Source of the DNA: Erythrobacter sp. ANT-B3C2
GTDB taxonomy: Bacteria; Pseudomonadota; Alphaproteobacteria; Sphingomonadales; Sphingomonadaceae
DNA: 64,000 bases
NCBI GenBank assembly: GCA_001683845.1
Contig: LXQI01000006.1
Coordinates: 1-64,000, forward strand
Direction of reading: 5' to 3'
Shown here: positions 1,491-24,718 of the stretch, piece after piece
Numbering within the stretch: the first letter of the stretch is position 1
Layout: every line of letters starts with the position of its first letter
The notes under the pieces: model-generated
What the model saw: the letters and a program-made list of their open reading frames with translations, nothing else
Databases searched by the model: none
Told to the model about the DNA's origin: nothing
Program-made: the position numbers and the translations under genes

Positions 1491-3530
1491 CTAATAGACT
1501 CCGTCGATCTCGCTTGGCAGGCGCGCTTGGGGCGGGTTCAGCAGGAGGCTAGGCTCGTACTCAAGCTGGCTTTCGGCAGCGCGAATGCGATCATACTTGA
1601 CCTCGGCAGCATCCGCAACGGACGTGCTATCCCGCAAAATCGTCGGCTTTAGGAACACGAACAACGTACGCCGGGTCGTGCTTTCGCGGCGGCTTTTGAA
1701 AAGCTCGCCGATGATCGGGAGGTCGCCGAGCACGGGCACCTGACTGCGAACCTGCAGCTGGTCGTCGCTGATCAATCCGCCGAGTACGATGGTCTGTCCG
1801 TCATCCGCGAGCACCGTGGTCCGGATTAAGCGGCGGTTGGTGATGAGATCGGCAGCGCCCGCGACCGCGCCCACTAGTGACGAAACCTCCTGGCTGACCT
1901 CGAGCCGTACTGTGTCGCCTTCATGGACCCGAGGGATAACCCGCAAAGTGATACCGACGTCTGCCCGCTCGATGGTGGTGAAGGGCGTCGTCGTGTTCCC
2001 ATCGGTCGCAAAGCTGCCGGTACGGAAGGGCACGTTCTGACCGACTACGATCTCAGCGGGCTGGTTGTCGAGTGTGGTGATGCTGGGGGTCGACAGCAAA
2101 TTGGCGCGGCTGGATTGTCCCAGCGCCTGGACCAGAACCCCGAAGTCGCCCCGACTGCCGATGTTGCCGGTAAACCCCTCTGAAATGCCGGCAGCGATGG
2201 GCGCACCGATAATGGCCAGGATTTGACGCAGTGACACGCCGATGTTGCTGAACGACGTCCCGGCGCCGTTGACCACCCCATCCGCGGCTGCACCAAGGCC
2301 CAGTTGGATGCCGAGTTGTTCGGACCGGTCGCCGGTGATCTCGACGATGGCGGCCTCGATCATCACCTGTGGCCGACGCACGTCGAGCTCTGCAATCAGC
2401 GGTTCTAGCGCGGCCACTTCCCCGGGCGAGCCGCGAACAACGATCGCGTTGAGCTCCGGAGCCGCTTGCACGGCTAGGGTGTTAGTGGCGAAACCGGCCT
2501 GACCTCCGCCTGCATCGTCGGGGAACATCGTGCTCGAAGGGCTTTCGGCCCCTCTGACCGCGGGGTTGTCGGTCAGAGTGGCAAATCCGCCTGCCGGGGA
2601 GGTGACCCCGCGAACGGGATTGGCCCCGGACCGGGCTTCGTTCGAGATCCTGCCGCTCAGGGTGCGGGCAACCGGATTGTTGGCTGCCTGCTCGCCCCCC
2701 ATCAGCCCGCTCAGGATCGCGGTGACGGCCTCGGCGTCGTTGTAGCGCAGCCGGAACACGCGGGTGACCGGTGCTGTGCCGCTTGGGCGATCAAGCACCC
2801 GCGCGATCCGGCGCGCTTCCGCAATCGCGCGCGTATCGCCCCGCACGAGGACGATGTTGCTACGCTCGTCAGCCACGGCCCGCGGACCGCCCCCCTCGCC
2901 TTCCCCAAGCACGCTTTCTATGGCCGCAGCGACATCGCGAGCAGCGGCATTTTCGAGCGTGATCGTGCTGACCCCCGGGCTGCTGCCGCCGCCATCGAGG
3001 CTACGGGCCAGGCTTTCGATACGCGCGACGTTGTCCGCGTAATCCGTGACGACAATGGCGTTAGGATTGGTGACCGGCTCAACACTGCCAAAGGCGGCGG
3101 CGATCGGCCGAAAAATGCGCGCCGCGGCTTCCGGCGAGAGCGTGCGCAGACGGATGAGCCGTGTGACCACCTGCCCCGTTGCCGCGCCTGTACTGGGTTC
3201 GCGGGCAGCGGTTGCTTGAGGAACGACGCGCCAGGCGCGACCCGAGCGAACGACCGCAAAGCCCTGGCCTCGCAATACGGAAACGAACAGTTCCCAAACG
3301 CCGCCGGGCGTCAGCGGTGTTGCCGAGGTGACATTGACCCTTCCGCTGACGCTGGGGTCCAAGATGATGGTCCGACCACTAATTCGTGACACCTGCTGAG
3401 CGACGTCGGCGATGTCTACATCGCGCATATTGACGACCACATCGGCCGGCTCCGCCTGCTGGGCGGCAACGGGCATTCCCAAGGCCATGATGATGGCCAG
3501 CGATGTGGTCCAATGGAAGATGGATTTCAT
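1491..3530 (-). CDS. gspD: Type II secretion system secretin GspD
   Basis: Signal peptide, N-domains (VNMRDVDIADVAQQVSRISGRTIILDPSVSGRVNV), secretin core (PQVMIEAAIVEITGDRSEQLGIQ...VPVLGDLPIIGELFKSR). Confidence 0.96.
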   Translation of the reverse strand: MKSIFHWTTSLAIIMALGMPVAAQQAEPADVVVNMRDVDIADVAQQVSRISGRTIILDPSVSGRVNVTSATPLTPGGVWELFVSVLRGQGFAVVRSGRAWRVVPQATAAREPSTGAATGQVVTRLIRLRTLSPEAAARIFRPIAAAFGSVEPVTNPNAIVVTDYADNVARIESLARSLDGGGSSPGVSTITLENAAARDVAAAIESVLGEGEGGGPRAVADERSNIVLVRGDTRAIAEARRIARVLDRPSGTAPVTRVFRLRYNDAEAVTAILSGLMGGEQAANNPVARTLSGRISNEARSGANPVRGVTSPAGGFATLTDNPAVRGAESPSSTMFPDDAGGGQAGFATNTLAVQAAPELNAIVVRGSPGEVAALEPLIAELDVRRPQVMIEAAIVEITGDRSEQLGIQLGLGAAADGVVNGAGTSFSNIGVSLRQILAIIGAPIAAGISEGFTGNIGSRGDFGVLVQALGQSSRANLLSTPSITTLDNQPAEIVVGQNVPFRTGSFATDGNTTTPFTTIERADVGITLRVIPRVHEGDTVRLEVSQEVSSLVGAVAGAADLITNRRLIRTTVLADDGQTIVLGGLISDDQLQVRSQVPVLGDLPIIGELFKSRRESTTRRTLFVFLKPTILRDSTSVADAAEVKYDRIRAAESQLEYEPSLLLNPPQARLPSEIDGVY

Positions 3531-3540
3531 GCAGGTGACC

Positions 3541-4395
3541 CTAACGGAATGGAACAGTGAGAGAAATTGGCTGACCGTTACGGAGTAGCTCGACGCGAGC
3601 GGTGCCGCTGGACATGGCCCGTGCCATGACCTCGCGCTCGTTAGTGGCGCTGGTAACGGCTGTGCCGTTGACTCGCTGGATGATGTCGCCGGCTCGGATG
3701 CCCGCGTTCAACATAGCGGGGGGAGGCGATACGCCGATCCGAAATCCTGTTTCCCCAGCGCTGGCTTGCGGCGGCGCGCCAACCGGTGCCGGCGGAGCTG
3801 CGCGCGAAGGGGTAAGGCCCTGCGTCGAGGGCGGGATGAGCGCGCGTATGCCGTCTACCCCGTTGGCAGCGGGTGGCGGTGCTGCGGGGGCCGTTTGATT
3901 GAACACCGGCTGCAATGCCGATGCGCCGGATGGAGCCTGGGCTCCGGTAACAGGCGCGCCGTTGCTCTCCGGGTTGAACCCGATCGTCTGGAGCCCATCG
4001 GGCATCCGCAAAGTGATCTGTTCTGCTGCGATGGACTCAATGACTCCGCCGCCTACGACCGAGCCGATGCCGTAGTTCGCGACCTTGCCGTCAGCCGTCG
4101 CGAGCAGCACCACCGAGGCTTCCATCGGCCGCGCGAGAAAGATCGCTTTCAGGCGCACCGCTCCTTCGCTGGTGGCTGAGCCGGTCACCAACACGGCGGT
4201 TCCGAACGGTGCCATTGCGACGAGGGGTGCAATGTCGACAGCGCGGCCGCCGCGCGCCACGACGGGCGCAGCAGCCGGCCCAATGCCCGGATCGCCCGTC
4301 AGCCGCCAAGTGAAGTTCGCAAGCGCCAGAGCGACTGAGGCGACGACTGCGCCCGTAAAGATATCGACACTTAACCTGGCTTGGCGCGGCGTCAT
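3541..4395 (-). CDS. gspC: T2SS inner-membrane protein GspC with C-terminal PDZ-like region
   Basis: Single N-terminal TM, HR region, C-terminal 'AGIRAGDIIQRVNGTAVTS'; adjacent to gspD. Confidence 0.9.
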   Translation of the reverse strand: MTPRQARLSVDIFTGAVVASVALALANFTWRLTGDPGIGPAAAPVVARGGRAVDIAPLVAMAPFGTAVLVTGSATSEGAVRLKAIFLARPMEASVVLLATADGKVANYGIGSVVGGGVIESIAAEQITLRMPDGLQTIGFNPESNGAPVTGAQAPSGASALQPVFNQTAPAAPPPAANGVDGIRALIPPSTQGLTPSRAAPPAPVGAPPQASAGETGFRIGVSPPPAMLNAGIRAGDIIQRVNGTAVTSATNEREVMARAMSSGTARVELLRNGQPISLTVPFR

Positions 4396-5821: not shown

Positions 5822-6985
5822 ATGGAAAATCCACCGGGCCCCTTATCGAATGCGCCAAATGCGGGCGCTTTCCGCGAACCCTCACCTTTGCGTACGGCGG
5901 GGGGAATTTGGTCGCTGGAGGACGATCATCTCGCCAGCATCGAGCAATTCGGGTCCGACCTCTCGGTCGTGCTGGTGCGCACCGAACACGTGTTGATTAT
6001 AACGGCTCAACTCCCGCCCATTGCGAGCATGGCACGGCGGCGGGCAGCCCTGCCCTTTGCAATCGAGGATCGGATCGCCGAACCGCTCGATGAAGTCCAC
6101 GTTGCATTAGGTGCGGAAGTCGCGCCTCATACCTTTATTGTCGGGGTCGTTCGGCATGAGCTTATGCGGCAGTGGGTCTTGCGGCTGGCAGAAGCAGGGC
6201 TCGACCGTGCAGCATTGGTGCCTGATGCACTCTCGCTGCCAGTCCCCGGTCCCGACACTTGGTCGGTCGACCTCGCTGGCGAGCGAGCGATGGTCCGCTT
6301 GCCGGATGGAACCGGCTTTGCCATGCCGTTGGCTCTGTTCACGTCCGCCTGGGAAGCCAATGGGAAGCCGCATGCGATCGCCTATGGCGATACCTTGCCG
6401 CCGCAAATGGAAGCGGCCCGGACGGAATTGGAGGTGGAGCCGCTCGCACACCGCTTGCTGGTTCCTGCACTGGACCTCCGACAGGGTCCGTATGCGCGGC
6501 CCCGCAAGCCCGTCGACCCACTATGGAGGCGCATTGCGTTCGTAACGGCAACCGGCGCTCTTGCTCACGCCACGATCGCCACCGGCGATACCCTCGCACT
6601 GAGCCACATAGCAGGCGAGCGTGAAACCGAAGTTCGCGCACTCGCCGCGACGGTTCAGCCGTCGCTCGTACTTGACCCGGAACTGAGCACGACGGTTAAA
6701 TCGCTTGCGCCAGCCAGTCAGGCCACCGCTGCGCCGAGCCAGTTCCTGATCCTGATTGACCGAACAGGCGCCGCACTGACCGCGGTCGATATTCCCGTTC
6801 TCTGGCGCTCGGTCGCCTTCGATCAGGCTGTAGGCACACTCACAATCGCGGTCGAGACAAGCGATATCGCCGGGCTCCAAAGGGTGTTGCAAGCGCTTAC
6901 CGCCGCGGGGTTAACGGTCCAGCCGGGGGCCGCAACGACCGACCAGGGCAGTGCTATCGGCAGCTTCACAGTGCTTGCCGGATGA
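5822..6985 (+). CDS. gspL: T2SS protein GspL
   Basis: ATG at 5822 in frame with ORF 5564-6985; actin-like cytoplasmic region, TM, periplasmic ferredoxin-like C-terminus; followed by gspM. Confidence 0.85.
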   Translation: MENPPGPLSNAPNAGAFREPSPLRTAGGIWSLEDDHLASIEQFGSDLSVVLVRTEHVLIITAQLPPIASMARRRAALPFAIEDRIAEPLDEVHVALGAEVAPHTFIVGVVRHELMRQWVLRLAEAGLDRAALVPDALSLPVPGPDTWSVDLAGERAMVRLPDGTGFAMPLALFTSAWEANGKPHAIAYGDTLPPQMEAARTELEVEPLAHRLLVPALDLRQGPYARPRKPVDPLWRRIAFVTATGALAHATIATGDTLALSHIAGERETEVRALAATVQPSLVLDPELSTTVKSLAPASQATAAPSQFLILIDRTGAALTAVDIPVLWRSVAFDQAVGTLTIAVETSDIAGLQRVLQALTAAGLTVQPGAATTDQGSAIGSFTVLAG

Positions 6986-7482
6986 TCGTCGAACGGTTCT
7001 CCCTGGCCCCGCTCGAGCCATACTGGGGCCGGACCCGCATCTGGTGGAGCGAGCGGAGCCGTCGCGAGCAAATTTTGATTGGTGCCTTTCTGGCCATTTC
7101 CATACTGACCTTGCTGATTGTGGCCGTGATCGCTCCACTTCACCAAGTACGCGAGGAGGCACGTGCCGACATCCGAAATGCTGCCATCCTGGAAGCGCGC
7201 CTGCGGGGCGCCGGGCCAGATCTGGCTCTGGCCGCGACGGTCAGAAGCGGCACGGCATCAGCCATCCTTGCTGACAGTGCAGCGGCTGCAAGTCTGGGGA
7301 TCGAGCGAATGGAGCCGGAAGGTGGCAACACCCGCGTCGTGTTGAGTGATGCGCCGTTCGAGCAAGTTATGCGCTGGATCGCGAACATTGAGCAAACCAG
7401 CCGGCTACGCGTGCGCGAGGCGGACATCGAACGCAAGGGCGCCGCGGGCATCGTCAGTGCCTCCATCGTGGTAGAGGGTTGA
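6982..7482 (+). CDS. gspM: T2SS protein GspM
   Basis: N-terminal 'WWSERSRREQILIGAFLAISILTLLIVAVIAPL' typical of GspM; overlaps gspL and gspE. Confidence 0.88.
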   Translation: MIVERFSLAPLEPYWGRTRIWWSERSRREQILIGAFLAISILTLLIVAVIAPLHQVREEARADIRNAAILEARLRGAGPDLALAATVRSGTASAILADSAAAASLGIERMEPEGGNTRVVLSDAPFEQVMRWIANIEQTSRLRVREADIERKGAAGIVSASIVVEG

Positions 7483-9008
7483 TGCAGGAGCCACTGGATC
7501 TCGCCACCCTGCGAGCACCCGAAACGCTGGTGCCGCGCCCTCCGGAACGAGTGACGAGCCTGAGCTATTCCTTCGCTCGCGAGTGCGGCGCGCTGGTACG
7601 TCAGGAAGGGGACGCTCTGGTGTGCGTCCATCGAACCGATGCTGGGCTGCAGAGCTTGCTCGAGGTACAGCGACTTTATGGTTGCAGCCGCTGGGAAGCG
7701 GTTGATGATCAAACGTTTGAGAAGATCCTTCAGGCCGTGTATCGCGAAAGTGCGAGCGTGGCCGCCGACATTGATACGCCGGACGATCTCGACCTGCTGT
7801 CGCTGGCCGACAGCGCGGCCGAGGTTGACGACCTCCTCGACACGCGCGACGATTCGCCAGTCATCCGTCTGATCAATGCGCTGCTGCTGCAAGCAATTCG
7901 GGAACGGGCCTCCGACATCCACATCGAGACGCAGGAGCGCAGGCTCATCGTCCGTTTCCGCATTGACGGTGTGCTGCGCGAGGTGATCGAACCCAAGCGT
8001 GCGCTCGCGCAATTGCTAGTCAGCCGGATTAAGGTGATGGCGCGGCTGGATATCGCCGAGAAACGCATTCCCCAGGATGGCCGGGTGACCCTGAGGATTG
8101 GGGGTCACGATATTGACGTGCGCGTGTCGACCATGCCCACACAGCACGGCGAGCGTGTGGTGATGCGATTGCTCGACCGGGGCTCGGTCGAGCTTGATCT
8201 GGTGGCACTGGGCATGAACTCGCGGGATGCCGCTTTGCTCGAGCGGCTGCTGGCACGGCCAAATGGCATGCTCTTGGTGAGCGGCCCGACCGGCTCGGGC
8301 AAGACGACGACACTTTATGCCGCGCTCAACAGTCTAAATGATCGGCGGCGCAACATCATGACCGTCGAGGACCCGATCGAGTATGAACTGGAGGGCATCG
8401 CTCAAACTCAGGTAAATTCACGCATCGACATGAGCTTCGCACGTGGCCTGCGCGCTATTTTGCGACAGGACCCCGACGTAATCATGGTCGGCGAGATTCG
8501 TGACCGGGAAACTGCCGAGGTCGCGCTGCAAGCGAGTATGACCGGGCACCTTGTACTCTCCACGCTGCACACCAATTCAGCGGTCGGAAGTATTACTCGG
8601 CTGATTGACATCGGGGTGGAGCGGTATCTGCTTGCACCGATGCTGATCGGGCTTCTCGCGCAGCGACTCGTGCGCAAGTTGTGTCCAAAGTGTCGAGTCG
8701 AAGGTGTCGCTAGCGCGAGCGAGGCGAGCCTGCTCGACGGGGCAATCGTCGAGGGGGCCACCGTGTGGCGCTCGGCAGGATGCGGCGTCTGTCACAACGA
8801 GGGCTATCGCGGACGCACCGGGCTCTATGAGCTTGTTCCTATTAATCGCGATCTCGAATCGCTGATCCACGAGGGTGCGTCCGAGGCGAAACTGGTCGAT
8901 GCCGCGCGAGCCCTCAGCCCCTCACTGCTCGCTGACGGGGCCGCTAAGATACAAACGGGTGTTACGACCGTCGCTGAAGTTGCACGCGTGGTCAGGGAAG
9001 TAGACTGA
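7479..9008 (+). CDS. gspE: T2SS ATPase GspE
   Basis: Walker A 'LLVSGPTGSGKTTTLYAAL', Asp/Walker B 'RAILRQDPDVIMVGEIRDRETAEVALQASMTGHLVLSTLHTN', CxxC metal site 'KLCPKC...CGVCHNEGYRGRTGLYE'. Confidence 0.97.
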   Translation: MMQEPLDLATLRAPETLVPRPPERVTSLSYSFARECGALVRQEGDALVCVHRTDAGLQSLLEVQRLYGCSRWEAVDDQTFEKILQAVYRESASVAADIDTPDDLDLLSLADSAAEVDDLLDTRDDSPVIRLINALLLQAIRERASDIHIETQERRLIVRFRIDGVLREVIEPKRALAQLLVSRIKVMARLDIAEKRIPQDGRVTLRIGGHDIDVRVSTMPTQHGERVVMRLLDRGSVELDLVALGMNSRDAALLERLLARPNGMLLVSGPTGSGKTTTLYAALNSLNDRRRNIMTVEDPIEYELEGIAQTQVNSRIDMSFARGLRAILRQDPDVIMVGEIRDRETAEVALQASMTGHLVLSTLHTNSAVGSITRLIDIGVERYLLAPMLIGLLAQRLVRKLCPKCRVEGVASASEASLLDGAIVEGATVWRSAGCGVCHNEGYRGRTGLYELVPINRDLESLIHEGASEAKLVDAARALSPSLLADGAAKIQTGVTTVAEVARVVREVD

Positions 9009-9012
9009 GCCT

Positions 9013-10254
9013 GTGCCGGCGTATTCCTATCAGGCAATCGACCCTGCCGGAAAGTCTAAGAGGGGTATCATCGAGGCGAGTACGGTGTCGGGCGCCCGGC
9101 AGGCACTTCGCGAGCGAGCGCTACTGCCGCTGTCCGTTGTCGCCACGCATCGATCCGAAGCCGCGAAGGGCAGCGTTGCGGACGGTGGTCCACTCCAGTG
9201 GCTGCGCAGCCGTCGCTCGATTTCCAGTCGCGCCCTATCGACCGCGACCAGGCAGCTTGCGACGCTGATCGGAAGTGATGTGCGGATCGAGGAAGCGCTG
9301 CGACTGGTCGCAGGGCAGGCTGAGAACGCTGTGCTGAAATCTATTCTGCTCGACGTGCGCGCCGCGGTGCTGGAAGGCTCCAGCTTCGCGAGGGGGCTTG
9401 CTCGCCATCAGCAGGCGTTTCCCCAGTATTTCAGAGCGTCCATCGAGGCGGGCGAACGCTCGGGCCGGGTTCCGGAAGTGCTGTCTTACCTCGCCGATTT
9501 TGTCGAGGCCCGGCATCGCGCGAACCAGAAAATCCGGCTTGCTCTGCTTTACCCCGCCTTGTTGGCGCTTATTTCGGCGTCGATGATGACGTTGATGATG
9601 ATTTATGTCGTGCCCGACATCGTCAGGGTTTTTGAGTCGCGCGGATCGGACTTGCCGCTCCTGACCAGGTTGCTGATCGCCTTTAGTGCGTTCCTCTCTA
9701 ACTTTGGACTGGTGATGCTCGGCCTACTGATTGTAGCTACGGTTTTTGCCCGGCGCGAACTGGCCCGTCCAGAACGACGACTGGCATTCGATCGTGCCGT
9801 CGCGACGCGCCGGCCAATGGCAAAGTTCAGCCGCCAAGCAAATTCGGCCCGCTTCGCCGCGACGCTGGCCACGCTTGTGCAAAGCCGGGTCCCATTGCTC
9901 GATGCGCTGATAGCGGCCGCGGCCGTGATCCCCAATCGCTACACGCAAAGGCAGGCGGAAAGGGTCGCGGCTCGCGTGCGCGAAGGGGACAGCGTGCACC
10001 GCGCGATGGCCGAAGCAGCAATCTTCCCATCGATGCTGGTGGCCATCGTCGCCAGTGGCGAGACAGGGGGGCAATTGGGCCCTGCCCTGGGCCGGGCTGC
10101 GGCCGAGCTCGACCGCGACGTCGAGGCGCAGGTCGCGGTGATCGTATCGCTGGTGGAACCGGCCGTGCTGCTACTAATGGGCGGGCTGGTGTTGCTGATG
10201 GTCATGGCCATCCTGCTGCCGATTATAGGTCTGAACGATTTGGCTATCTCCTAA
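9013..10254 (+). CDS. gspF: T2SS inner-membrane protein GspF
   Basis: 'MPAYSYQAIDPAGKSKRGIIEASTVSGARQALRE', two T2SSF repeats and three TMs. Confidence 0.96.
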   Translation: MPAYSYQAIDPAGKSKRGIIEASTVSGARQALRERALLPLSVVATHRSEAAKGSVADGGPLQWLRSRRSISSRALSTATRQLATLIGSDVRIEEALRLVAGQAENAVLKSILLDVRAAVLEGSSFARGLARHQQAFPQYFRASIEAGERSGRVPEVLSYLADFVEARHRANQKIRLALLYPALLALISASMMTLMMIYVVPDIVRVFESRGSDLPLLTRLLIAFSAFLSNFGLVMLGLLIVATVFARRELARPERRLAFDRAVATRRPMAKFSRQANSARFAATLATLVQSRVPLLDALIAAAAVIPNRYTQRQAERVAARVREGDSVHRAMAEAAIFPSMLVAIVASGETGGQLGPALGRAAAELDRDVEAQVAVIVSLVEPAVLLLMGGLVLLMVMAILLPIIGLNDLAIS

Positions 10255-11049: not shown

Positions 11050-12038
11050 TGTGGACGCCGGCTCACGCGGCCCGAGCGAATCTCCCGGCCGCGCTGCTCA
11101 TCCCGAAGAGCGGACCGCACGCCGCGCTTGGCCGCAGCATGGAACGAGCAGCGATCATGGCGCAAGGCGAAAGCGACAGCAGGGCGCTAATGGTCTACGA
11201 CACCGGAGGGAATCCTGCTGGCGCAGCAGTTGCCGCTCGATCCGCTCGGCGGGCTGGCGCGGCCGTTATTCTGGGTCCCGTTTTTTCGGCCGAGGTGCCG
11301 GCGGTGCTTGCGATTGTCGGATCCGGGCTGCCGGTGGTGACATTCAGCAACGACCTCGCGCTGCTGGAACGGGGCGCGTTCTTGCTCGGCATCACAGCTG
11401 GGCAGGTCGTTGCCGCGATTTTGGCTTATGCAGCCCGGCGGGGCGTCCGCCGCATCGCTATTGGCGGATCGCCCGATACGTGGGGAGAGCAGGCCCGTGC
11501 TGCAGCTATGATCAGCGCAAGCTCGTTGGGATTGAGCAGCTATTTGCTACCTGCAGGAGAGCTGAAGCAACTGGGTCCGGCCGCAAGCTCATCGGAAGAC
11601 GCCCTGCCCGATGCCGTACTGATGACGAGCGCGGCGGACATGCTGTCAATGGCGCCCGCCGCCGCTGCCCAAGGGGTGCAGCTGCTGGGCTCGCCTTTAG
11701 ATCTGGATCTCGACCCCGATGAGTTGCGCGTGCTCGATGGCGCGTGGCTTGCCGCACCCGATCCGGCGCGTTTCGCCGGCTTTGCCCGCACGTTCGAGGA
11801 TCGCAACGGCTCGCCTCCTGGAACTATCGCCGGGCTCGCGTTTGATGCGGTAAACATCGTTCAGCAGGTGCGGCTTGGCGGCGGTTTGGACCGTTCGGGC
11901 ATTCTCGCCGCCGATGGATTTAGGGCGGTTTGCGGCGATGTACGCTTCCGCGATAACGGCAGCGCAGCTCGTGCTTTAGCCATCCTAACGGTGGCGAATG
12001 GCGGCCTCCGAACGGTCGCTGCTGCGGCCATGGTGTAA
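10977..12038 (+). CDS. Periplasmic-binding-fold protein (LppC / branched-chain amino acid binding-like) embedded in the gsp locus
   Basis: 'LPAALLIPKSGPHAALGRSMERAAIMAQ', 'GGNPAGAAVAARSARRAGAAVILGPVFSAEVPAV', 'GLAFDAVNIV'; RR-containing signal 'MDRRLLLRSVPSVLVASS'. Confidence 0.75.
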   Translation: MMLMDRRLLLRSVPSVLVASSVPSLWTPAHAARANLPAALLIPKSGPHAALGRSMERAAIMAQGESDSRALMVYDTGGNPAGAAVAARSARRAGAAVILGPVFSAEVPAVLAIVGSGLPVVTFSNDLALLERGAFLLGITAGQVVAAILAYAARRGVRRIAIGGSPDTWGEQARAAAMISASSLGLSSYLLPAGELKQLGPAASSSEDALPDAVLMTSAADMLSMAPAAAAQGVQLLGSPLDLDLDPDELRVLDGAWLAAPDPARFAGFARTFEDRNGSPPGTIAGLAFDAVNIVQQVRLGGGLDRSGILAADGFRAVCGDVRFRDNGSAARALAILTVANGGLRTVAAAAMV

Positions 12039-13837: not shown

Positions 13838-15495
13838 CAGGGCTGCGCAGGCTTGGCGGCAGCCGCGTCGCGGGCCGAATTCGGCGAACCCGGGATCGGC
13901 GTGTTCAGGTACGGGAACCCGGGCCGCAGATCACGTGCCGAAATGGGCGCGCCATCCGTGAAGGGCACATTGCCGACCGGAGCATTTTCCGGCTTGCACA
14001 AGCCAAGGTCGGTTGGTGTGCCATTAATCGGGACAGGGTGACAGAGCCGTCCCATTGCAACCCGCAGCACAATATCGATAATGTCATCACCCGGACGGCG
14101 CCCGTTCGGGAAGCCGGCAAGGTCGTCCGCCACAACACCGAGGTTTTTCTGGCTTGCGCGCGGTGTCGGCGCGATGGCGGTATTCAACCGAAGCATTTCC
14201 GACGCAGTGACTCTCGCCTGCCTATTCAAGGACGTAATCCCTGTCAAAAACGTCGCAACCAGATCGTTCCGCGGGAAGTTATTCGGGGCAAGATTAGCGA
14301 TATTGGTGCCCAGCGTTGCATTGACGGGACCCCGGAACAGGCTGTCGAGAATGGCCGGGAATGTTGGATTGGTAACGAAATCGGCCAGCGCGGCATCCCC
14401 CATCGGCTCTGCCGCGTTAAACAGATCCTTTCTGTTCAATCCGATCACCACTTCGTTGGTCAGCGGCATGCCAAGTCTGGAGACCTGCACGAATGCTCCG
14501 CCATCGACTGTCGGCATGCTGTAAGTCGGCGTGGGATCCAGTATCCGAGCCTGTGGCAAGCTTGCCGTCGACCACGCGCCGATGACACCGTTGCCCGAAC
14601 CGGTAAGGCAGGAAATCGGCAGTTCGAGAGCGATGCTCGTAATATTGTACTCGCCAACCAGAGAGTCATTCTCGCGGCTCTGGGTAATCCCGCCCGGGAA
14701 ACCACCACCATCATTGGCGAACGGAGCACTGTCGCCTTCAATCGGCACGTAGTTCACCAGATCAAAAGTTTCCCCCAGGTTGAACGCAAAAGCTTCCTCA
14801 CGCTGTCCGACGAACATTCGACCGCCCGCTGAACAACCGGGGACGCTGACGTTGTACATGAACTGGTTCGCGTAAGCTTCGTACGTTGGCACCGTCTTGT
14901 TGCCAATATTGTCGATCGGCTTGGGAAAGCTGGTTCCGCCGCCAGCTGAATTGGTGATGCTCGCGCGGGTACCACTGCGCCGGTCACCGGAAATCTGCGT
15001 AACAGTATAGGATTCGAGTTCGTTCTGGTTCGGATCCTCTGGTGCGGTTATAGGACCAACGGCCCGGAGCGGAACGGTGACGTCCTTCCCCCCAATATTG
15101 AGCGCAATCCCGTTCCCGCCGCGAAGCGAGTTCGTGAACCTGAATGAATAGGTCAGGTTCTCGACGGCATCCCCATCATTGTCGATGTGGATTTCGTAAA
15201 GAGCGTCCGGGTCCATCGTAAAATAGCTCGGTCCAGAGCCCGGGAACTGAATGGGTTGGAAGTTGGCGATGATCGTTACAAAATCCTCACGTCCCGGCTC
15301 ATAGCTGCGAAACATGTAAAAATCGGTGTTATCTACCTTCGGATATTTAGAAATGTTGGGAGCCTCACGATGGCTCGAGGCGATCGTCGCGCCGCTCGGG
15401 ATGACGCACATCGCGCCCGCTGCGGTTCCCAATGCAAGCTTTCTTAAAGTAGACATGTCCATACTCCTAATTACTATAGATTTCCGGCAGTGCAT
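13837..15495 (-). CDS. DUF4331 domain-containing secreted protein
   Basis: 'SSHREAPNISKYPKVDNTDFYMFRSYEPGREDFVTIIANFQPIQFPGSGPSYFTMDPDALYEIHIDNDGDAVENLTY'. Confidence 0.9.
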   Translation of the reverse strand: MHCRKSIVIRSMDMSTLRKLALGTAAGAMCVIPSGATIASSHREAPNISKYPKVDNTDFYMFRSYEPGREDFVTIIANFQPIQFPGSGPSYFTMDPDALYEIHIDNDGDAVENLTYSFRFTNSLRGGNGIALNIGGKDVTVPLRAVGPITAPEDPNQNELESYTVTQISGDRRSGTRASITNSAGGGTSFPKPIDNIGNKTVPTYEAYANQFMYNVSVPGCSAGGRMFVGQREEAFAFNLGETFDLVNYVPIEGDSAPFANDGGGFPGGITQSRENDSLVGEYNITSIALELPISCLTGSGNGVIGAWSTASLPQARILDPTPTYSMPTVDGGAFVQVSRLGMPLTNEVVIGLNRKDLFNAAEPMGDAALADFVTNPTFPAILDSLFRGPVNATLGTNIANLAPNNFPRNDLVATFLTGITSLNRQARVTASEMLRLNTAIAPTPRASQKNLGVVADDLAGFPNGRRPGDDIIDIVLRVAMGRLCHPVPINGTPTDLGLCKPENAPVGNVPFTDGAPISARDLRPGFPYLNTPIPGSPNSARDAAAAKPAQP

Positions 15496-16390: not shown

Positions 16391-18358
16391 TCAGAACGCA
16401 AGGCGCGCGCCTGCAGTTATGGCATGAATTTCACGCCCGCCGTTAAAGTCAAACTGAGCCTCATAATCGAAAACGACAGCGAAGGGCCCACCACCAGTCA
16501 CGTCGAGTGAGGCACCCGCATTGTAATAATCGCGGTCGAATGCAGTCCCGGTAAACGGAAAGGAGCCTGTTCCGATCGAATTGGAAAGGAAATTGGCAGT
16601 AATGATAGCGGGATCGTCCCGGAACTCATGATACCAGCCGCCGCGTATCTCGGGCCGAAAAACGACATTGCCGTCGCTGACTCCAAAGCCGAGCCGCGCG
16701 CCGACATTACTGCGGAGGGACTCCCGCTCCTGACGAAGGACGTTCAGCGCCGCGACCGAACCCCCGGCTTCGCTGAACCCGTCGATTTTGACCTCAGCGT
16801 AGCGGATAGCCGCAAACGGTTCGAATCTCACTGCGCCCAATGCGATCGACAGACCGGCACTAGCCCCACCAGCCCAAACCTCTCCGTCAGTCTGCCCGGT
16901 CGGCTGTGCCGAGAAGCCACCGAATGATAGCGAGCGCGTCAGATCGAATTTAACATCGGTGTAGCTTCCCCATGCATCGAGAAACACCGGACCGAGCGAA
17001 GCCGTGCCGTAAACGCCTGTAAACCAACTCTCAACCCCGCTCCGCTGGCTTAACGGAGTGAGTCGTACTGCCGAATTGCTGTATCCGCCGAAAACACCCA
17101 GCGCCGATGCCTCACCAATCCTGACATCGAGGCCGCCGAGCCCATGAAAACCATGAAAGTCAAATTCAGGGCGATCCACAGCCTGTTCGAAGCTACCTTC
17201 GCGACCGCCGCCGGCGATCCAGGCGCCGACCCGCCCCTGGCTATCGAGCATTGCAGTCGAGCCGTCAGGCATTATGCCGCCACCGCGCACAGATCGTGCA
17301 TACCGCAGGATTGTCGTCTCGCTCACTTCTGCAGCGTTTAACGCAATCTCCGTCAACGGAGAGAAGGCGGCGGGGGATAAAGCGCTCAGGGCCGCTGATT
17401 GAGCCCCCGGCGTGGCGAACAAGTTGTCGATCCCGTTGAGGAGAGCTAGCGTATCGCCCCTGGGGATGCCGACAAACTGGTCGATCTGCCCACCAACAGC
17501 GACTTGGTTGGCAGTAGTCCCCATCGTGGCGAACGGCGCCAGAGCAATGGCCAGGCCTTCGTAAAGCATGTTGCCGCCCAGAGCGCCAATCAATGTGGCA
17601 GCACCAGTGGTCAGGTTGATGCTGTAAAGCGATGTCACCCGCGTGCCCGGGCTGGTCATCGTCGCAAGCGCCGTGCCTTCGCGGCTAATGTCAAACCCGA
17701 CGTTTCCAAGCGTGGTAACGTTCGTGGAACCCACCGAGAACAGCGTCCCGGTGTTCGGCCCGGCCGTCGCGTTACCCTGGGTCGCCAGCTGCGCCGGCGC
17801 AAGCGCCCCGCGCGTATCAATAACGTAAAGCGTCGTCGAGGTCGCCCCAACGACAGGATTGGTGTAGGCCGCACCAGCAACGTTCACGATCGCGCCGGAA
17901 AGAGGATCCCCGGCCGCATAGGCGAGCGTGCCATCCACGGCGACCAGCGCCCCCGTGTCAGGATGAACCCGAAAGTTTTGACGGGTCTGCGTAACAACCC
18001 GAAGGCGATCCACTGTCGGATTGAAATCGAAGCCAACGCCTCCAATAGTCGGCGTTGCCGGCGTAGCGCCCACCTTTGTCGCCGCGCCCGTTCGGGTGTT
18101 CACGACATAAAGCTGCCCCACGTTACTCATCGCATAAAGAACACGAGGCGAGGACGAACGATAATCTATGGCCGCGATCGTGGTAAGCGGGTCGAGGCCA
18201 GTGACAGCAACCGACGAAACAACCACTCCAGGCGCAGTCGCCTGGAACGTGACGATCGTGTTGCCGTCCCTCACGGTCTGAACCGTTTGGGCCTGAGCTC
18301 CCGAAAAGGCAGTAACCAAAGCCACTGCAGCGACACCAACCAGCCAACGTTGAATCAT
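16391..18358 (-). CDS. DUF4394 domain protein with C-terminal autotransporter beta-barrel
   Basis: DUF4394-like repeats ('LYVVNTRTGAATKVG','GVGFDFNPTVDRLRVVT'), C-terminal barrel ending 'ITAGARLAF'. Confidence 0.85.
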   Translation of the reverse strand: MIQRWLVGVAAVALVTAFSGAQAQTVQTVRDGNTIVTFQATAPGVVVSSVAVTGLDPLTTIAAIDYRSSSPRVLYAMSNVGQLYVVNTRTGAATKVGATPATPTIGGVGFDFNPTVDRLRVVTQTRQNFRVHPDTGALVAVDGTLAYAAGDPLSGAIVNVAGAAYTNPVVGATSTTLYVIDTRGALAPAQLATQGNATAGPNTGTLFSVGSTNVTTLGNVGFDISREGTALATMTSPGTRVTSLYSINLTTGAATLIGALGGNMLYEGLAIALAPFATMGTTANQVAVGGQIDQFVGIPRGDTLALLNGIDNLFATPGAQSAALSALSPAAFSPLTEIALNAAEVSETTILRYARSVRGGGIMPDGSTAMLDSQGRVGAWIAGGGREGSFEQAVDRPEFDFHGFHGLGGLDVRIGEASALGVFGGYSNSAVRLTPLSQRSGVESWFTGVYGTASLGPVFLDAWGSYTDVKFDLTRSLSFGGFSAQPTGQTDGEVWAGGASAGLSIALGAVRFEPFAAIRYAEVKIDGFSEAGGSVAALNVLRQERESLRSNVGARLGFGVSDGNVVFRPEIRGGWYHEFRDDPAIITANFLSNSIGTGSFPFTGTAFDRDYYNAGASLDVTGGGPFAVVFDYEAQFDFNGGREIHAITAGARLAF

Positions 18359-18536
18359 AATCGCTTACCCCACCTGTTTGCTTGAAACCGCTAATTGTCG
18401 GTTTGAGTGCCGGCAAGCGTCGGTGTCAATGTTCTTTACGACGCCCGGCGAGGGAAGGATGCAAGGGCGGCTAAATAATTGTGATAGCTGCGGTTCAGCC
18501 CAGGGCTTGCTCACCGACGTTGGGAGGATTGCTGAC

Positions 18537-19304
18537 ATGCCTCCACTGGAAAGCGTTTGGCCGATCGCGTCGCCGGGGCTGCACGCCGCCTTGGGTCTGT
18601 CCCTCGGTCTAGTCGTCGGAAGCTACCTTGCAACGGTCTTCGTTCGATGGCCCGAAGGGGACACCGCCGCAGGCTTTTCAAGGTCACGTTGCGACAGCTG
18701 CGGCCGTCAGCTTCGTTGGTACGAGATCGTGCCATTGCTCTCGTTCTTCGTACTGCAGGGCCGGTGCCGTTCCTGTCAGGCACGCATTGGCCGAACGCAT
18801 CTCGTTTTCGAACTCCTGTGCGGCGCGGCCGGAGCGTTCCTTTTTGCTTCAGGCAACGCGGGCTTGGCACCCATCATCTGGCTGTTAATCGCACTAGCCT
18901 TCTTCGACGCGACTTATTTTTGGCTGCCCAACGCTCTCGTGATCGCACTGGGCCTAGCTTCTATCTTGGCACCACCGTGGCAGGAGGACTCCTCCTACGT
19001 AGCACGGCTCTGGGGCGGGGCAATCGGCTTTACTTCGCTCTGGTTCATCTCAGCGGCACATCGATCTGTCCGCAAACGAGAGGGGCTTGGCCGAGGCGAT
19101 GCAAAGATGTTTGGGGCAATTGGCTTGTGGACTGGTCTTCTCGGCCTGCCGACACTGCTGCTCTTGGCCTGCCTGATTGGGCTTGTAGACGCGCTACGGC
19201 GGCTAACAGGCGGGGCAGACGCGCGCACTGTTCATCTTCCTTTCGGGACGTACTTGGCTGTCGGGACAATCATGATGGTACTGCTGAAATCGCAAATTGC
19301 ATGA
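18537..19304 (+). CDS. gspO: Prepilin peptidase (A24 family, GspO/PilD-like)
   Basis: 'GSYLATVFVRWP', CxxC pairs 'RCDSCGRQLRWYEIVPLLSFFVLQGRCRSCQARIG', 'FDATYFWLPN', 'GLGRGDAKMFGAIG' catalytic GxGD-type motif; start approximate. Confidence 0.92.
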   Translation: MPPLESVWPIASPGLHAALGLSLGLVVGSYLATVFVRWPEGDTAAGFSRSRCDSCGRQLRWYEIVPLLSFFVLQGRCRSCQARIGRTHLVFELLCGAAGAFLFASGNAGLAPIIWLLIALAFFDATYFWLPNALVIALGLASILAPPWQEDSSYVARLWGGAIGFTSLWFISAAHRSVRKREGLGRGDAKMFGAIGLWTGLLGLPTLLLLACLIGLVDALRRLTGGADARTVHLPFGTYLAVGTIMMVLLKSQIA

Positions 19305-19373: not shown

Positions 19374-20491
19374 ATGCCACGGCTGTTGTTCCGCCGAGAG
19401 TTCAAGCTCGGATCGGTGAAGCTGGCACGAGAGCGCAGGGTGTCGGTAGCGCAGGCCGCTCGCGATTGGGACCTGCATGAGAAGGTGCTGCGCAACTGAG
19501 TTCGCAGCCACGAGGCTGACCGGGGATCGGCATTGCACGGCAACGGCGTGATAAGTCCGATGAGCAGGAGATTGAGCGGCTGCGCCGTGAGTTTGCCAGA
19601 ATGAAGGCGGAGCGTGACATGTAAAAAAGAATTGCGCCGGCCTACTTTCCGAACGGCTCGCTATGAAGATCGCCTTCGGTGCGAAGCACCGGGGGATCTG
19701 GCCGGTATCGTGGATCTGCGAAGCACTCGAAGTTCCGCGCAGCGGCTTTCATGCCTGGCTGATCCGGGCACCCAGCGCGCGCGCCCGCAGCGACGAGGAG
19801 TTCGGTGCCAGGGTCCCCGCAAGCTTCATCTCCAGCTATCGGATGTACGATGCGCGCCGCGCCTGGCACGATCTTTTAGCCGGAGGGCCTTCATGCAGCG
19901 TGCATAGTGACGAGCGGCTGATGCGTGTTCACAGCCTGAAGGCCCGTCTACGGCGTCGCGGGCTGCCGAACGAACACGGCATACGCTCAGTTATCGCCGA
20001 CAACGTGCTCGATCGCCAGTTCACGGCCGGCACCCGACCAGAAGTGGATCGCCGACTTCACTTACATCTGGACCGCCGAAGAATGGCCGTACGCCGCCGC
20101 GGTGATCGACCTGTCCTCAAGTGGTCGGCTGTCGATGAGCGATACCATGACGGCTCGTCACCGACGCGCTGATGATGGCGATCTGGCGGCAGGGCAAGCC
20201 CGGTACGCTACTGCATCACTCCGACCAGGGTTAGCGAATATATTAGCGAGCAGTTCCAGCGGCCGATGGCCGCCAACGGCGTCACCTCCTCGATGAGCCG
20301 GTCAGGCAACATCTGAGCTCTTCTCTTCACTGAAGACCGGAACGGATCGCGCGAAAACCTACCGCACGCGCAACCACGCAAGGCAGGACGTGTTCGATTA
20401 CATCGAGCGCTTCTACAAACCCATGCCCATGCACTCGATCCTGAGCTATCTTAGCCCCTTGGACCTCGAGCGGCGGGCGCAGGTAGCTTAA
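19374..20491 (+). mobile_element. Decayed IS3-family element (orfA/orfB remnants with multiple frameshifts and stops)
   Basis: orfA 'MPRLLFRREFKLGSVKLARERRVSVAQAARDWDLHEKVLRN*'; orfB 'KHRGIWPVSWICEALEVPRSGFHAWLIRAPSARARSDEE', 'SVIADNVLDRQFTA', C-terminal 'VFDYIERFYKPMPMHSILSYLSPLDLERRAQVA'. Confidence 0.88.
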
Positions 20492-20639: not shown

Positions 20640-21863
20640 GTGCGAGATTCCCTCACCAGCATAGCCTTCAATGCACTCGATCGTAGGGGCGCGACTTACA
20701 GCCTGTGCAACTTGCAGGCACTCGGCTCAACGCTCAATCCAAGTTTTCTTTCTAAACACTCGGTAGCCCCGCTGAATTTAATCGATGGTGTTCTGACCGT
20801 CGGCATGGTCGATGTGGAGGACCACCAGGCCATCGCAGCACTAAAGTTCGCAACCGGGCTCGAGATCGCACCGGTCCCGATGCAGCGGCGAGACGTTCAC
20901 CGGCGCCTGGCCTCGATCCACCCAACGCAAGCCCCTGCTTCTCTTTGTTCATCTTCTCCGCAGCGCAAGGTGGACCCTACTCGAGGCGAGCTCACGCTCA
21001 CACTGCCACAGGGCATCGTGGCGTACAACGGTGCGAGCTTAGTCGACCTTGTCGGCGATTGGCTCGGATCACGGCCGCGAGCAGAGGCGCCGCTAGTGTG
21101 GTTGGGCCGGTTGCTGGCGGCAGGTTTCACGCCGGCCGAAGCCGGAACCATCATAACTCAGGCACATGGCCGAGGCGTTTGCTTGCCGGCCGGCGACTTG
21201 GCAGCGGCTGAGGGGCTGAGCAAAGGCCAGAACCTCGAGGCGGCCCTTGCGCAAGCCGCTGTTTCGCCGTGGCTCAAGTTCGCACTGGCATGCGCCCATG
21301 AAGGGGCGGACCAGGCCACGATCGTTGTGAAGCTGTCCGACTGTGAAGCTGCGATGGCCCACGGGCGCAGCGAAGCACGGAGGCTGGTCTTGGAGCTTGC
21401 CGCCTGGACAGTCCCGGCGCTGATCGCGTGGCGAAGCATCTCGCTGTCCGCCTGCGCGTTGATCGCGGCGGGGATCGTATTGATCTGGGTCAACATTCGC
21501 GCCGTTGTTCGTGATCGACCAAACAACGATGTGGTTCGGGCGGCCGTCCTAGAGATCATCTCTGCCCTTGCCCGACTCGGCATGCTGGACTCAGTGGCAA
21601 TCAGGATTGGTCTCGTTCGCTTGAACTCGCTGGCGCCCACGTGGGGCCAACTGCCCGACGAACGCGAAGGCCTAGCGCGCGCGCTGGCTTTACCGCCCCT
21701 CACGGCGGCACTGCTTGAGCGCGGCGATTTGGCAGAGGCAGCGGCTCGCACCGCATATCAGTGCCGTGAGCGCGCGAAGCAGATCCTCGAGCGAACACGC
21801 TGGCTGGTCCGGTGCTCCGGCATCCTGCTGGTGGGCACCGCGACCACCCTGTTGCTCACCTGA
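20640..21863 (+). CDS. Fusion of GspE N-terminal (MshEN-like) domain to a divergent GspF-like membrane protein
   Basis: N-term 'FLSKHSVAPLNLIDGVLTVGMVDVEDHQAIAALKFATGLEIAPVPMQRRDVHRRLASIHP'; then T2SSF-like 'LVWLGRLLAAGFTPAEAGTIITQAHGRG...LAAAEGLSKGQNLEAALAQ', central TMs, second repeat and C-terminal TM. GTG start; no Walker motifs. Confidence 0.7.
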   Translation: MRDSLTSIAFNALDRRGATYSLCNLQALGSTLNPSFLSKHSVAPLNLIDGVLTVGMVDVEDHQAIAALKFATGLEIAPVPMQRRDVHRRLASIHPTQAPASLCSSSPQRKVDPTRGELTLTLPQGIVAYNGASLVDLVGDWLGSRPRAEAPLVWLGRLLAAGFTPAEAGTIITQAHGRGVCLPAGDLAAAEGLSKGQNLEAALAQAAVSPWLKFALACAHEGADQATIVVKLSDCEAAMAHGRSEARRLVLELAAWTVPALIAWRSISLSACALIAAGIVLIWVNIRAVVRDRPNNDVVRAAVLEIISALARLGMLDSVAIRIGLVRLNSLAPTWGQLPDEREGLARALALPPLTAALLERGDLAEAAARTAYQCRERAKQILERTRWLVRCSGILLVGTATTLLLT

Positions 21864-22981
21864 TGGAAACAGGCATCGTGGCACTGCGGATAGACCGGGA
21901 GGGCTTCGTCGCCTTGCGCGACGAGGCCGAAATTTTCGTCATCAGGCGCGGCGATCCGGCGGATTGGGAGGTGGTCCGCAGGCTCGCCGTAGGGCAGCGC
22001 TGGCTGGCTGTCCATGTCCCTGACTGGGCCGCGCTGCAGGTCGCCCTGCCGGCGCGGACGCGCAAACGTCGCGAATTGCGGGAAATGCTGCGCGATGCCG
22101 CTCCGGTGCTGCCAGAGGAGCTTGTATGGACCAGCCCGCGGTCGCTTGATGATGGCAAGGCGGGCGTATCGGTCGTACGCCGCCTTTGGCTTGATGATCA
22201 TTGCGTGGAAGTCGAAACAGAGATGCCGATGGCGCTGCACGTCATTGTCGAGCCGACAGGAGATCCGCTTCGCTACCGATCGCCCGCCGTCCGCCTCCGC
22301 AACAGGCTGACGGCCACGATCGTCTCGGGATCGCTCTTGGTCAGCGCCATCGCGCTGGCCCTGACCGCCAGAGGCACGCCGCCTTCCGAACAACTGCTCG
22401 GGTTTACCGGACTGGGCGCTACGCCGAGCGTGTCGGCGACTCTGCTGAAGCTGGGCTTCAGCGCGCCGGCAGGGACTCGTCTTGTGGCCATCTCAGCCGA
22501 CCCCTCCGGCAGTGTCGCCCTCGAACTTGATGCCCCTGATCCTAACATCGTGCATCGGGTAATGGCCGGCCAGCGCTCGCTCGGTCGATGGACGCAGACC
22601 CGCCAAGTTCGCCGCGCCGACGCCAGCTACCGAGTGACTTACCGCGCCAGCCCTGTTGGCACAGTTCGCGGCCACCACCTCGTCCTGCCGTTGGCTGCCC
22701 GCTCGCCTGGGGAAGCGATTACACTTGCAACCAGCATTCTCAGCGAGCATGCGCGCGCCGGAAGGGTCGAACTGCAGCTCACACGAGGCTCGGCAAGCGC
22801 CAGCAACCCGCTCGTCTTCGGCGTCTCCCTGGCCGGCCCACAAGCAAGCGTCCTGGCGCTGGCGGATCGGATCCAAAGTGGCACGCCTGCAATCCGGATC
22901 GACAACTGGCGGCTGCAGCCCGACCCCACTGGAGTGCGCCTCACAGGCGCTCTGGTGGTCCCGTGGATGCTTGAGCCTTGA
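21863..22981 (+). CDS. GspL-like/GspM-like single polypeptide (cytoplasmic domain, one TM, two periplasmic ferredoxin-like regions)
   Basis: ATG overlaps the preceding TGA; TM 'LTATIVSGSLLVSAIALALTA'; C-terminal 'FGVSLAGPQASVLALADRIQSGTPAIRIDNWRLQPDPTGVRLTGALVVPW' resembles the GspM periplasmic region. Confidence 0.55.
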   Translation: METGIVALRIDREGFVALRDEAEIFVIRRGDPADWEVVRRLAVGQRWLAVHVPDWAALQVALPARTRKRRELREMLRDAAPVLPEELVWTSPRSLDDGKAGVSVVRRLWLDDHCVEVETEMPMALHVIVEPTGDPLRYRSPAVRLRNRLTATIVSGSLLVSAIALALTARGTPPSEQLLGFTGLGATPSVSATLLKLGFSAPAGTRLVAISADPSGSVALELDAPDPNIVHRVMAGQRSLGRWTQTRQVRRADASYRVTYRASPVGTVRGHHLVLPLAARSPGEAITLATSILSEHARAGRVELQLTRGSASASNPLVFGVSLAGPQASVLALADRIQSGTPAIRIDNWRLQPDPTGVRLTGALVVPWMLEP

Positions 22982-23403
22982 GCAAAAGAACTCATCTCTG
23001 GCTAAGAAGCCTTGCGCTCGCGCAGGCGGCGCTGGCGATCGCGTTGACGTGGGCCTGGCGAGACGCCGAGCCGAGGATGTTTGGACCCACGACGGCCATG
23101 GTGCCGGTGCTCCCCCCCGGAGCCGCAGTCACAAGCTTGCCGCCGCTCTTTCCGGCCTTTACTCCGCCGATGGACACGCTGTTCGACGGCACCCCCGCCC
23201 CGGGCGCTCCTGAACTTATCGGGATCGCAGGACGGCTGCCGGACGATGCCGAGATTCTGGTGCGGACGCCAGAAAGCGGCACCGTGGCGCTCAAGATTGG
23301 CGAAAGTACGCTTGGCTGGACCGTAGTCGAGGTTTCACTAAATGGTGTGCTGTTCGAGAAGGATGGCCTGCGGAGCTTGGTCGCTCTCGAGGTTAATCGC
23401 TGA
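22978..23403 (+). CDS. GspC HR-domain/PilP-like small inner-membrane protein
   Basis: TTG start overlapping the preceding stop; N-terminal TM; C-terminal 'LIGIAGRLPDDAEILVRTPESGTVALKIGESTLGWTVVEVSLNGVLFEKDGLRSLVALEV' matches HR-domain pattern. Confidence 0.6.
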   Translation: MSKRTHLWLRSLALAQAALAIALTWAWRDAEPRMFGPTTAMVPVLPPGAAVTSLPPLFPAFTPPMDTLFDGTPAPGAPELIGIAGRLPDDAEILVRTPESGTVALKIGESTLGWTVVEVSLNGVLFEKDGLRSLVALEVNR

Positions 23404-23475: not shown

Positions 23476-24015
23476 CTACGACCAGCAGTCAGCTGGTCCT
23501 TGCAGATCCAAGAAGAACGGATCATCGAACAGGCCGGCGCGGACCATCACCCCGTCCTCCGCCGGGTTCGTCTCGACGAAGCCCTCGATCGGACCGTTGG
23601 TGCCGGAAACGTTCACCACCTGCACGCCAAATTCACCCTCCGCGGCGCGCGGGCCGAAACGGATTTGAAACGGTGTTTCCACGCTCGTGCGGCTGGGCGC
23701 ATTGGAGATGTTGATCGTGTGAAGCACGTCGGGATCGTAGGTGACCGGCTGGCTGGCCGCCTGCGGACCGGCGAAGGTCAGTACCAGGTTCACCATCTCG
23801 TCGGTGTACCAGGCATAGAGATCGGCAAGATCGGCCGGGCGATCGGGCTTGGGCGTGGGATCGACCGCAGGGTCGGTACGGCCCGGCGGATTGAGGTGGT
23901 CGGCGGCCGTGAGGCCCAGCCCGGCACCGACAGGGTCGCGCAGGCGGCCAGCCCGATTGCGCCCGCTCCTGCCCTCTCCCCGTCTGCCGTGCTTTTGCAG
24001 CCGCATCATCAGCAT
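23476..24015 (-). pseudogene. Truncated and probably frameshifted DUF4331 paralogue
   Basis: 'ADHLNPPGRTDPAVDPTPKPDRPADLADLYAWYTDEMVNLVLTFAGPQ...FDDPFFLDLQG' then premature end; signal-peptide-like sequence 'AGAIGLAACATLSVPGWA' lies in a different frame. Confidence 0.7.
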
Positions 24016-24160: not shown

Positions 24161-24718
24161 ATGAATCGCGGGCTTGCCGAGGACCTGGCTGCCGAGCTGG
24201 AGGCGGTCGCGCTCGGCGACATGGAGGCGATGCGCCGATTGCACGATGCAACCTGCCACAAGCTATTTGCCGTCTGCCTTTCCATCGTCAACGACCGTGA
24301 GGCCTCCCAGGACGTCCTGCAGGAGGTGTATATCAAGGTCTGGAACCGGGCGCAGGGCTTCGACAGGGCTCGCGGCCTGCCGCTGGCTTGGCTGGCGATG
24401 ATGGCGCGTAATAGCGCGATCGACTGGCTTCGTGCGCAATCCCGGCAGCGCCGCACCAGCGAGCAGGTGGCGCTGGAACTGATCTCCGATGATGGCGAGC
24501 CGGTCGACGAGCAGCTCGCACGCCAGCAACAGGCGGCGCAGGCGATCAACTCGATGGAGGAGCTCGACACGGCTTCGCACGCCATGATCCATGACGCCTT
24601 CATTGGGGGCCTCAGCTATTCGGAGGTGGCCGAGAGTCGCGGCATGCCGCTCGGCACGGTCAAGAGTCGTATCCGCCGTGGGTTGCTGCAGATGCGGCAA
24701 AGCATGGTCAGTGATTGA
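24161..24718 (+). CDS. ECF-family RNA polymerase sigma factor
   Basis: Region 2 'SQDVLQEVYIKVWNRAQGFDRARGLPLAWLAMMARNSAIDWLRAQSRQ'; region 4 'GGLSYSEVAESRGMPLGTVKSRIRRGLLQMRQSM'. Confidence 0.95.
   Translation: MNRGLAEDLAAELEAVALGDMEAMRRLHDATCHKLFAVCLSIVNDREASQDVLQEVYIKVWNRAQGFDRARGLPLAWLAMMARNSAIDWLRAQSRQRRTSEQVALELISDDGEPVDEQLARQQQAAQAINSMEELDTASHAMIHDAFIGGLSYSEVAESRGMPLGTVKSRIRRGLLQMRQSMVSD

Follow-up and report, generated by a model that had tools for sequence, protein, structure and literature searches.

Three overlapping genes of Erythrobacter sp. ANT-B3C2 (positions 20640-23403 of the window, the 64,000-nucleotide stretch of DNA analyzed here) encode a variant of the GspC-GspL-GspM (CLM) platform of the type II secretion system (T2SS), not a complete T2SS. 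The module is conserved and inherited together with the canonical T2SS in most surveyed sphingomonads that have one, and its L-, M- and C-like parts are most similar to those of a different, Xps-like T2SS lineage. On balance, we somewhat favor the view that the trio is a CLM platform of Xps type, orphaned from its own machine, that now serves the canonical T2SS as an accessory. An earlier note on this DNA had called the set undescribed; in agreement, a literature search limited to open-licence PMC papers found no account of sphingomonads with an orphan CLM set.

Why would a second platform matter? A stoichiometry mismatch has been discussed for the T2SS (PMC11981180); how its six motor subunits are matched to the platform proteins and to a fifteen-fold secretin, and how the machine chooses its substrates, are open questions. 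A clade in which most machines inherit a second, motor-less CLM set is a natural test that separates platform functions from motor coupling. Moreover, a conserved component is being overlooked when T2SS genes are annotated in the genomes of this large environmental clade.

Composition and surroundings of the trio

We refer to the genes of the window trio as T1, T2 and T3 and to their separate-gene homologs elsewhere as X1, X2 and X3, where T2 corresponds to X1 plus X2 and T3 to X3. All three genes lie on the forward strand and have intact reading frames: T1 (20640..21863; 407 amino acids, GTG start), T2 (21863..22981; 372 amino acids) and T3 (22978..23403; 141 amino acids, TTG start). They overlap at TGATG (21861-21865) and TTGA (22978-22981), exactly as the earlier note had it. 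Their codon-position GC (0.68/0.52/0.70 for T1) resembles that of the adjoining gsp genes and is unlike that of the IS region. A pattern scan of T1 detected no Walker A motif, Pfam found MshEN alone in this protein, and neither ORF reading nor Pfam revealed a secretin or pseudopilins among T1-T3, in keeping with the proposed lack of an ATPase and a secretin.

The predicted prepilin peptidase gene upstream is indeed present on the same strand (gspO, 18378..19304, start codon uncertain; Peptidase_A24, E 2e-15), and gspO is also the same-strand neighbor of X1 in another genome (L079). Between gspO and T1 sits a degenerate insertion (approximately 19614..20460, forward strand), whose assignment to the IS3 type comes from a single HTH_21 match (E 2.4e-6), no open transposase frame being found within it; to that extent the IS3 remnant anticipated at this site is supported. 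Two genes for DUF4331 proteins, both on the reverse strand (13840-15495 and 23479-24015, the second one shorter), flank the gspO-trio region. Past the second of these follow genes for an ECF sigma factor (24161-24718) and an RskA-like anti-sigma factor, and a reverse-strand gene that combines DUF4394 and an autotransporter beta-domain in one chain (16394-18358) adjoins gspO.

The canonical T2SS of the window comprises, on the reverse strand, gspD (1491..3530), which encodes the secretin, and gspC (3541..4395; T2SSC and PDZ by Pfam). On the forward strand it comprises gspL (5834..6985; T2SSL, E 7.8e-21), gspM (6982..7482; T2SSM, E 2.3e-25), gspE for the ATPase, with a match to the GSPE_N1E domain (7479..9008), and gspF (9013..10254; T2SSF, E 5e-49). 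A putative periplasmic ABC substrate-binding protein gene (10977-12038) lies inside this cluster between putative gspN and gspJ; it occurs in many sphingomonad T2SS loci and is absent from most Brevundimonas ones.

T1 begins with an MshEN (GspE N1-type) domain (residues 30-94; 20727..20921), recognized by Pfam with an E-value of 1.9e-9 and 37.8 bits against a curated cut-off of 23.1. Its second part (residues 152-407; 21093..21860) appears to consist of two helical bundles and hydrophobic helices; GspF/PilC proteins have a pair of homologous cytoplasmic helical bundles and three transmembrane helices. An AlphaFold model of T1, built from two sequences and of low confidence (mean pLDDT 49), was compared with known structures by Foldseek. 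The N-domains of XpsE, PilB and MshE were retrieved with probabilities of 0.99-1.00, and the part of this low-confidence model that follows MshEN matched 2whn, the N-domain of PilC (TM-score 0.64 on target, probability 0.69). Among 16 control profiles, GspF scored best against residues 140-407 (25 versus at most 19 for the others, and 9 for the reversed sequence), a match that is not significant alone (probability 3-6%). We regard the second part, on weak sequence support, as a putative divergent GspF/PilC-like membrane region. T1 would thus carry one copy of each fold type found in GspE N-domain/MshEN and GspF/PilC proteins; unlike these, it is a single fused chain without an ATPase. The earlier description of gene 1, MshEN joined to a divergent GspF-like region without Walker motifs, is borne out, with the GspF half drawn from the low-confidence model.

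T2 starts with what appears to be a shortened Xps-like GspL cytoplasmic part (residues 1-140; 21863..22282), assigned by hhalign and of low model confidence: from residue 52 onward, T2 aligns with Xps-like GspL at 98.6% in this profile comparison. The sole transmembrane helix (residues 141-169; 22283..22369) was placed by model and hydropathy. It is followed by two periplasmic ferredoxin-like domains, the first in the position of GspL/PilN (residues 189-262; 22427..22648; model, Foldseek and profiles) and the second in that of GspM/PilO (residues 282-366; 22706..22960; model and Foldseek). Both have the order alpha-beta-beta-alpha-beta-beta and were modelled confidently from an alignment of X1 rows alone, a joint alignment of T2 with X1 and X2 sequences having misplaced X1 and not been used. 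Foldseek related them to PilO, EpsM, EpsL and XcpY with probabilities of 0.95-1.00 and E-values >0.05, and, for the second domain, T2SSM_b matches were seen among homologs. GspL and GspM in one chain, as had been suggested for gene 2, is what these data describe.

Profile comparison identifies T3 as a GspC-type HR protein without a PDZ domain. For gene 3, the proposed HR domain stands; the proposed transmembrane segment is less clear, the N-terminal hydrophobic stretch of T3 being weak in this respect (Kyte-Doolittle <1.5). A homolog matched the GspC model NF041515. Sequence searches of the PDB gave only a weak GspC match with X3 (7oio, E 0.14) and nothing informative with X2. Held-out T2 and T3 were recovered by the orphan profiles X1 (8.9e-10), X2 (1e-19) and X3 (6e-21). 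The earlier note would have abandoned its idea had genes 2 and 3 been unlike GspL, GspM and GspC; similarity was found at the levels of both structure and profile.

Probable descent from an Xps-like T2SS

Could the trio have arisen from the canonical genes next to it? It is not a rearranged copy of the adjacent gspE/F/L/M/C; profiles and gene order point to a different source. In hhalign comparisons, orphan X1, X2 and X3 match the Xps-like L, M and C profiles with probabilities of 98.6, 99.1 and 99.6%, as opposed to 12, 13 and 92.5% for the canonical ones, the first two values being close to background and the last a moderate similarity. On these values, an origin by duplication of the neighboring canonical gspLMC was rejected. 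The canonical proteins share with the module the HR domain, ferredoxin-like periplasmic domains and single transmembrane helices; they differ by the PDZ domain of GspC and the complete T2SSL cytoplasmic domain of GspL.

A second, Xps-like T2SS with the gene order E-F-G-H-I-..-L-M-C-D and a GspE that bears MshEN is present in other Sphingomonadaceae genomes. The order and the overlaps were read in five loci (L066-L068, L070, L072), and in these full systems the E-F, L-M and M-C pairs overlap already. The NCBI XpsM model recognizes their GspM at 7.9e-14, slightly short of the cut-off of this model. T1 (E N-domain and F), T2 (L and M) and T3 (C) reproduce this order minus the motor domain, the pseudopilins and the secretin. 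One genome (G135) harbors a canonical and a full Xps-like T2SS at distant sites, so the two can coexist, and we infer that a state with both systems came before the orphan module. Full Xps-like systems (L066-L068, L070, L072, L074-L078) are spread over several genera of the Sphingomonadaceae, and most of the genomes concerned have no canonical one.

The trio resembles the XpsC-XpsL-XpsM set of Xanthomonas (PMC11981180) in its L-M-C order after E-F and pseudopilins, in an HR-type C without PDZ, and in the ferredoxin-like periplasmic domains of L and M; GspE of the Xps-like relatives likewise bears MshEN, and profile similarity is highest to the Xps-like L, M and C proteins of this family. Unlike the Xps platform, the trio lacks a motor domain, pseudopilins and a secretin; L is fused to M and the E N-domain to F, the L cytoplasmic domain is reduced or lost, and the module adjoins another, canonical T2SS. 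With PilN-PilO-PilP of type IV pili, the trio shares the periplasmic fold of T2 (PilO being a high-probability match) and the HR/PilP relation; it differs in that its operon contains neither PilM nor pilus genes and stands in a T2SS context. Set against a complete T2SS, the trio is missing an ATPase, a secretin and pseudopilins of its own. With an Xps-type CLM set it shares closest L, M and C profiles, the order (E-F)-(L-M)-C and an HR-bearing C.

An ancestral Xps-like E-F-G-H-I-..-L-M-C-D system may thus have shed its secretin and pseudopilins, along with the motor part of E, in the window lineage, where the E N-domain would have been joined to F (T1) and L to M (T2), with C left alone (T3) and the order kept. 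In most other sphingomonads, only L-M-C would be left, each encoded by a small gene of its own, and the cytoplasmic domain of L would be largely or entirely missing.

Conservation and co-inheritance with the canonical T2SS

The usual form of the module elsewhere is three small genes, X1-X2-X3, in which the L-like cytoplasmic domain is mostly or wholly gone: this GspE-binding domain of GspL appears partial in T2, and most X1 have short N-terminal regions. In one lineage (L024, L027, L118, L122), the first ~50 residues of X1 read like a putative GspF N-terminus. Full-length T1 was found only in the window organism and Alteripontixanthobacter muriae, so that the E-F fusion, which the earlier note took as the form of the set, is exceptional. 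Other T1 matches (G032, G303 and others) were set aside as MshEN-only, in frames of 546-703 amino acids that read as real ATPases.

We surveyed 47 sphingomonad/caulobacter GspD loci with >=2.5 kb of downstream sequence. X2/X3 are present at 31 of them, and at 24 of these 31 it runs convergently to gspD at a distance of <=1.6 kb; in the window organism, with its IS remnant upstream, the trio no longer adjoins gspD. Across 299 Sphingomonadaceae genomes, with canonical GspL as T2SS marker, X3 occurs in 19 of the 23 that encode this protein and in 1 of the 276 that do not (Fisher 3e-25), the lone exception being a match at a contig edge. In all 19 carriers, X3 is on the same contig as the T2SS, within ~25 kb, and the other four genomes of the window organism's genus have neither T2SS nor trio. 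The idea that the set is conserved beside a full T2SS is upheld by both samples. A single-protein search across the family matched 12 genomes, one of them falsely; the match in L029 was rejected, as the gene reads as cox11/ctaG-like. A pattern scan of genome contigs for T2 gave no match, T2 being too divergent for such a scan, and no plasmid copies of the module were found.

Nearly all carriers fall into a single Sphingomonadaceae clade of the GspD tree (94% SH-aLRT), in which there are a few losses or relocations. S. oleivorans and S. flavalba were scored as lacking the module on this tree, yet have it ~24 and 15 kb from gspL. Among the Caulobacteraceae, Allosphingosinicella and Polymorphobacter relatives the module is absent or not scorable, and the Caulobacteraceae T2SS loci without it indicate that it is not part of every related machine. 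X2 and X3 distances correlate with those of GspD (r 0.86) as do those of canonical GspM (0.86) and GspL (0.82). The X2 and X3 tree repeats groupings of the GspD tree; for example, the window falls with A. muriae, the GspD proteins of the two being sisters, beside S. natans and S. vulcanisoli. A contig labelled Bacillus sp. 2B10 (L140) has a sphingomonad GspD, a case of probable contamination or mislabelling.

Possible roles and selection

In the T2SS, GspL and GspM pair by their ferredoxin-like domains, and the N-domain of GspE docks on GspL. Assembly of the CLM proteins and binding of the GspC HR domain to the N0 domain of GspD are established (PMC3169554, PMC11981180). By analogy, X1 and X2 would form a ferredoxin-domain heterodimer with the HR domain, anchored in the inner membrane, and the HR domain of T3/X3 would dock on N0 of the canonical GspD (1491..3530), beside canonical GspC-L-M. 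The role of the module could then be that of an accessory scaffold or that of an adaptor dedicated to some of the substrates, and its faster evolution would be in line with the latter. T1 of the window organism might stand in for E and F, seated without a motor on the cytoplasmic part of T2. More tentatively, sphingomonad T2SS may carry two CLM sets of different origin on one GspD ring, as hetero-oligomers, with T1 completing the second set in the window organism.

An accessory role is favored because the module is strictly inherited with the canonical T2SS. The name 'mini-T2SS' in the earlier note suggests a stand-alone secretion route, for which no evidence was found. The absence of the motor-binding domain from most X1 speaks against a self-contained machine with a motor and against a pseudopilus driven by the module. 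Thus the domains and the conserved set of the earlier reading hold, while the E-F form as the typical one and the stand-alone route do not; nor does a canonical source. Along the lines of that note, the trio might be a complete alternative platform which replaces GspC/L/M in some machines, borrows GspE, GspF, the pseudopilins and GspD, and handles dedicated substrates. L-, M- and C-like parts are all there, the module adjoins gspD, and its faster evolution fits substrate adaptation; yet most X1, without the GspE-binding domain, cannot themselves recruit the motor, and T1 has no ATPase and occurs beyond the window organism only in A. muriae. We judge this replacement unlikely.

Might the trio regulate the canonical system instead, T1 and T2 filling GspE/GspL or GspD docking sites to damp or switch it as a motor-less decoy? 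T1 does have MshEN without a motor, and docking of the GspE N-domain on GspL is established for the T2SS, but T1 is confined to two genomes, and cross-docking is doubtful as T1 carries MshEN where the canonical GspE has GSPE_N1E. Nor does T1 match the c-di-GMP motif family NF053729, which one Xps-like GspE matches below the family cut-off, and a c-di-GMP switch via T1 was rejected on this ground. A regulatory role seems quite improbable.

Returning to the orphaned platform as an accessory, what does selection tell us? The median dN/dS of 14 close pairs is 0.45 for X1, 0.31 for X2 and 0.22 for X3, against 0.05-0.14 for canonical gsp genes; these pairs share species and are not independent, and the values describe relatives only, the sole close partner of the window copy being ~31% identical. 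The module exceeds canonical C/L/M in this ratio by a factor of two to four, and E by more. X1-X3 of the relatives are under purifying selection: with dN/dS below 1 and above that of canonical gsp genes, the module is constrained, less so than these.

The elevated ratio would also suit a functionless relic, left over from an earlier Xps-like T2SS and decaying as selection relaxed. So would the fusions, the disappearance of the cytoplasmic domain and most partners, and the IS remnant beside the window copy. We consider such a relic rather unlikely, however: X2/X3, which seem to have arisen early in the Sphingomonadaceae clade, have remained open in many genera, with few losses on the GspD tree, dN/dS is well below 1, the module co-occurs and co-diverges with the canonical T2SS, and the window trio has a coding-type GC pattern. 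A sporadic pseudogene was rejected on the locus survey and the distribution on the GspD tree; where the earlier note had feared a sporadic decaying duplicate without synteny, the neighborhood survey found synteny kept.

In two pairs of loci (L146/L147 and L158/L160), the T2SS core is mostly 83-100% identical and X1-X3 just 51-74%. Their dS is raised as well, so that the module may have been exchanged between alleles or may be evolving very rapidly.
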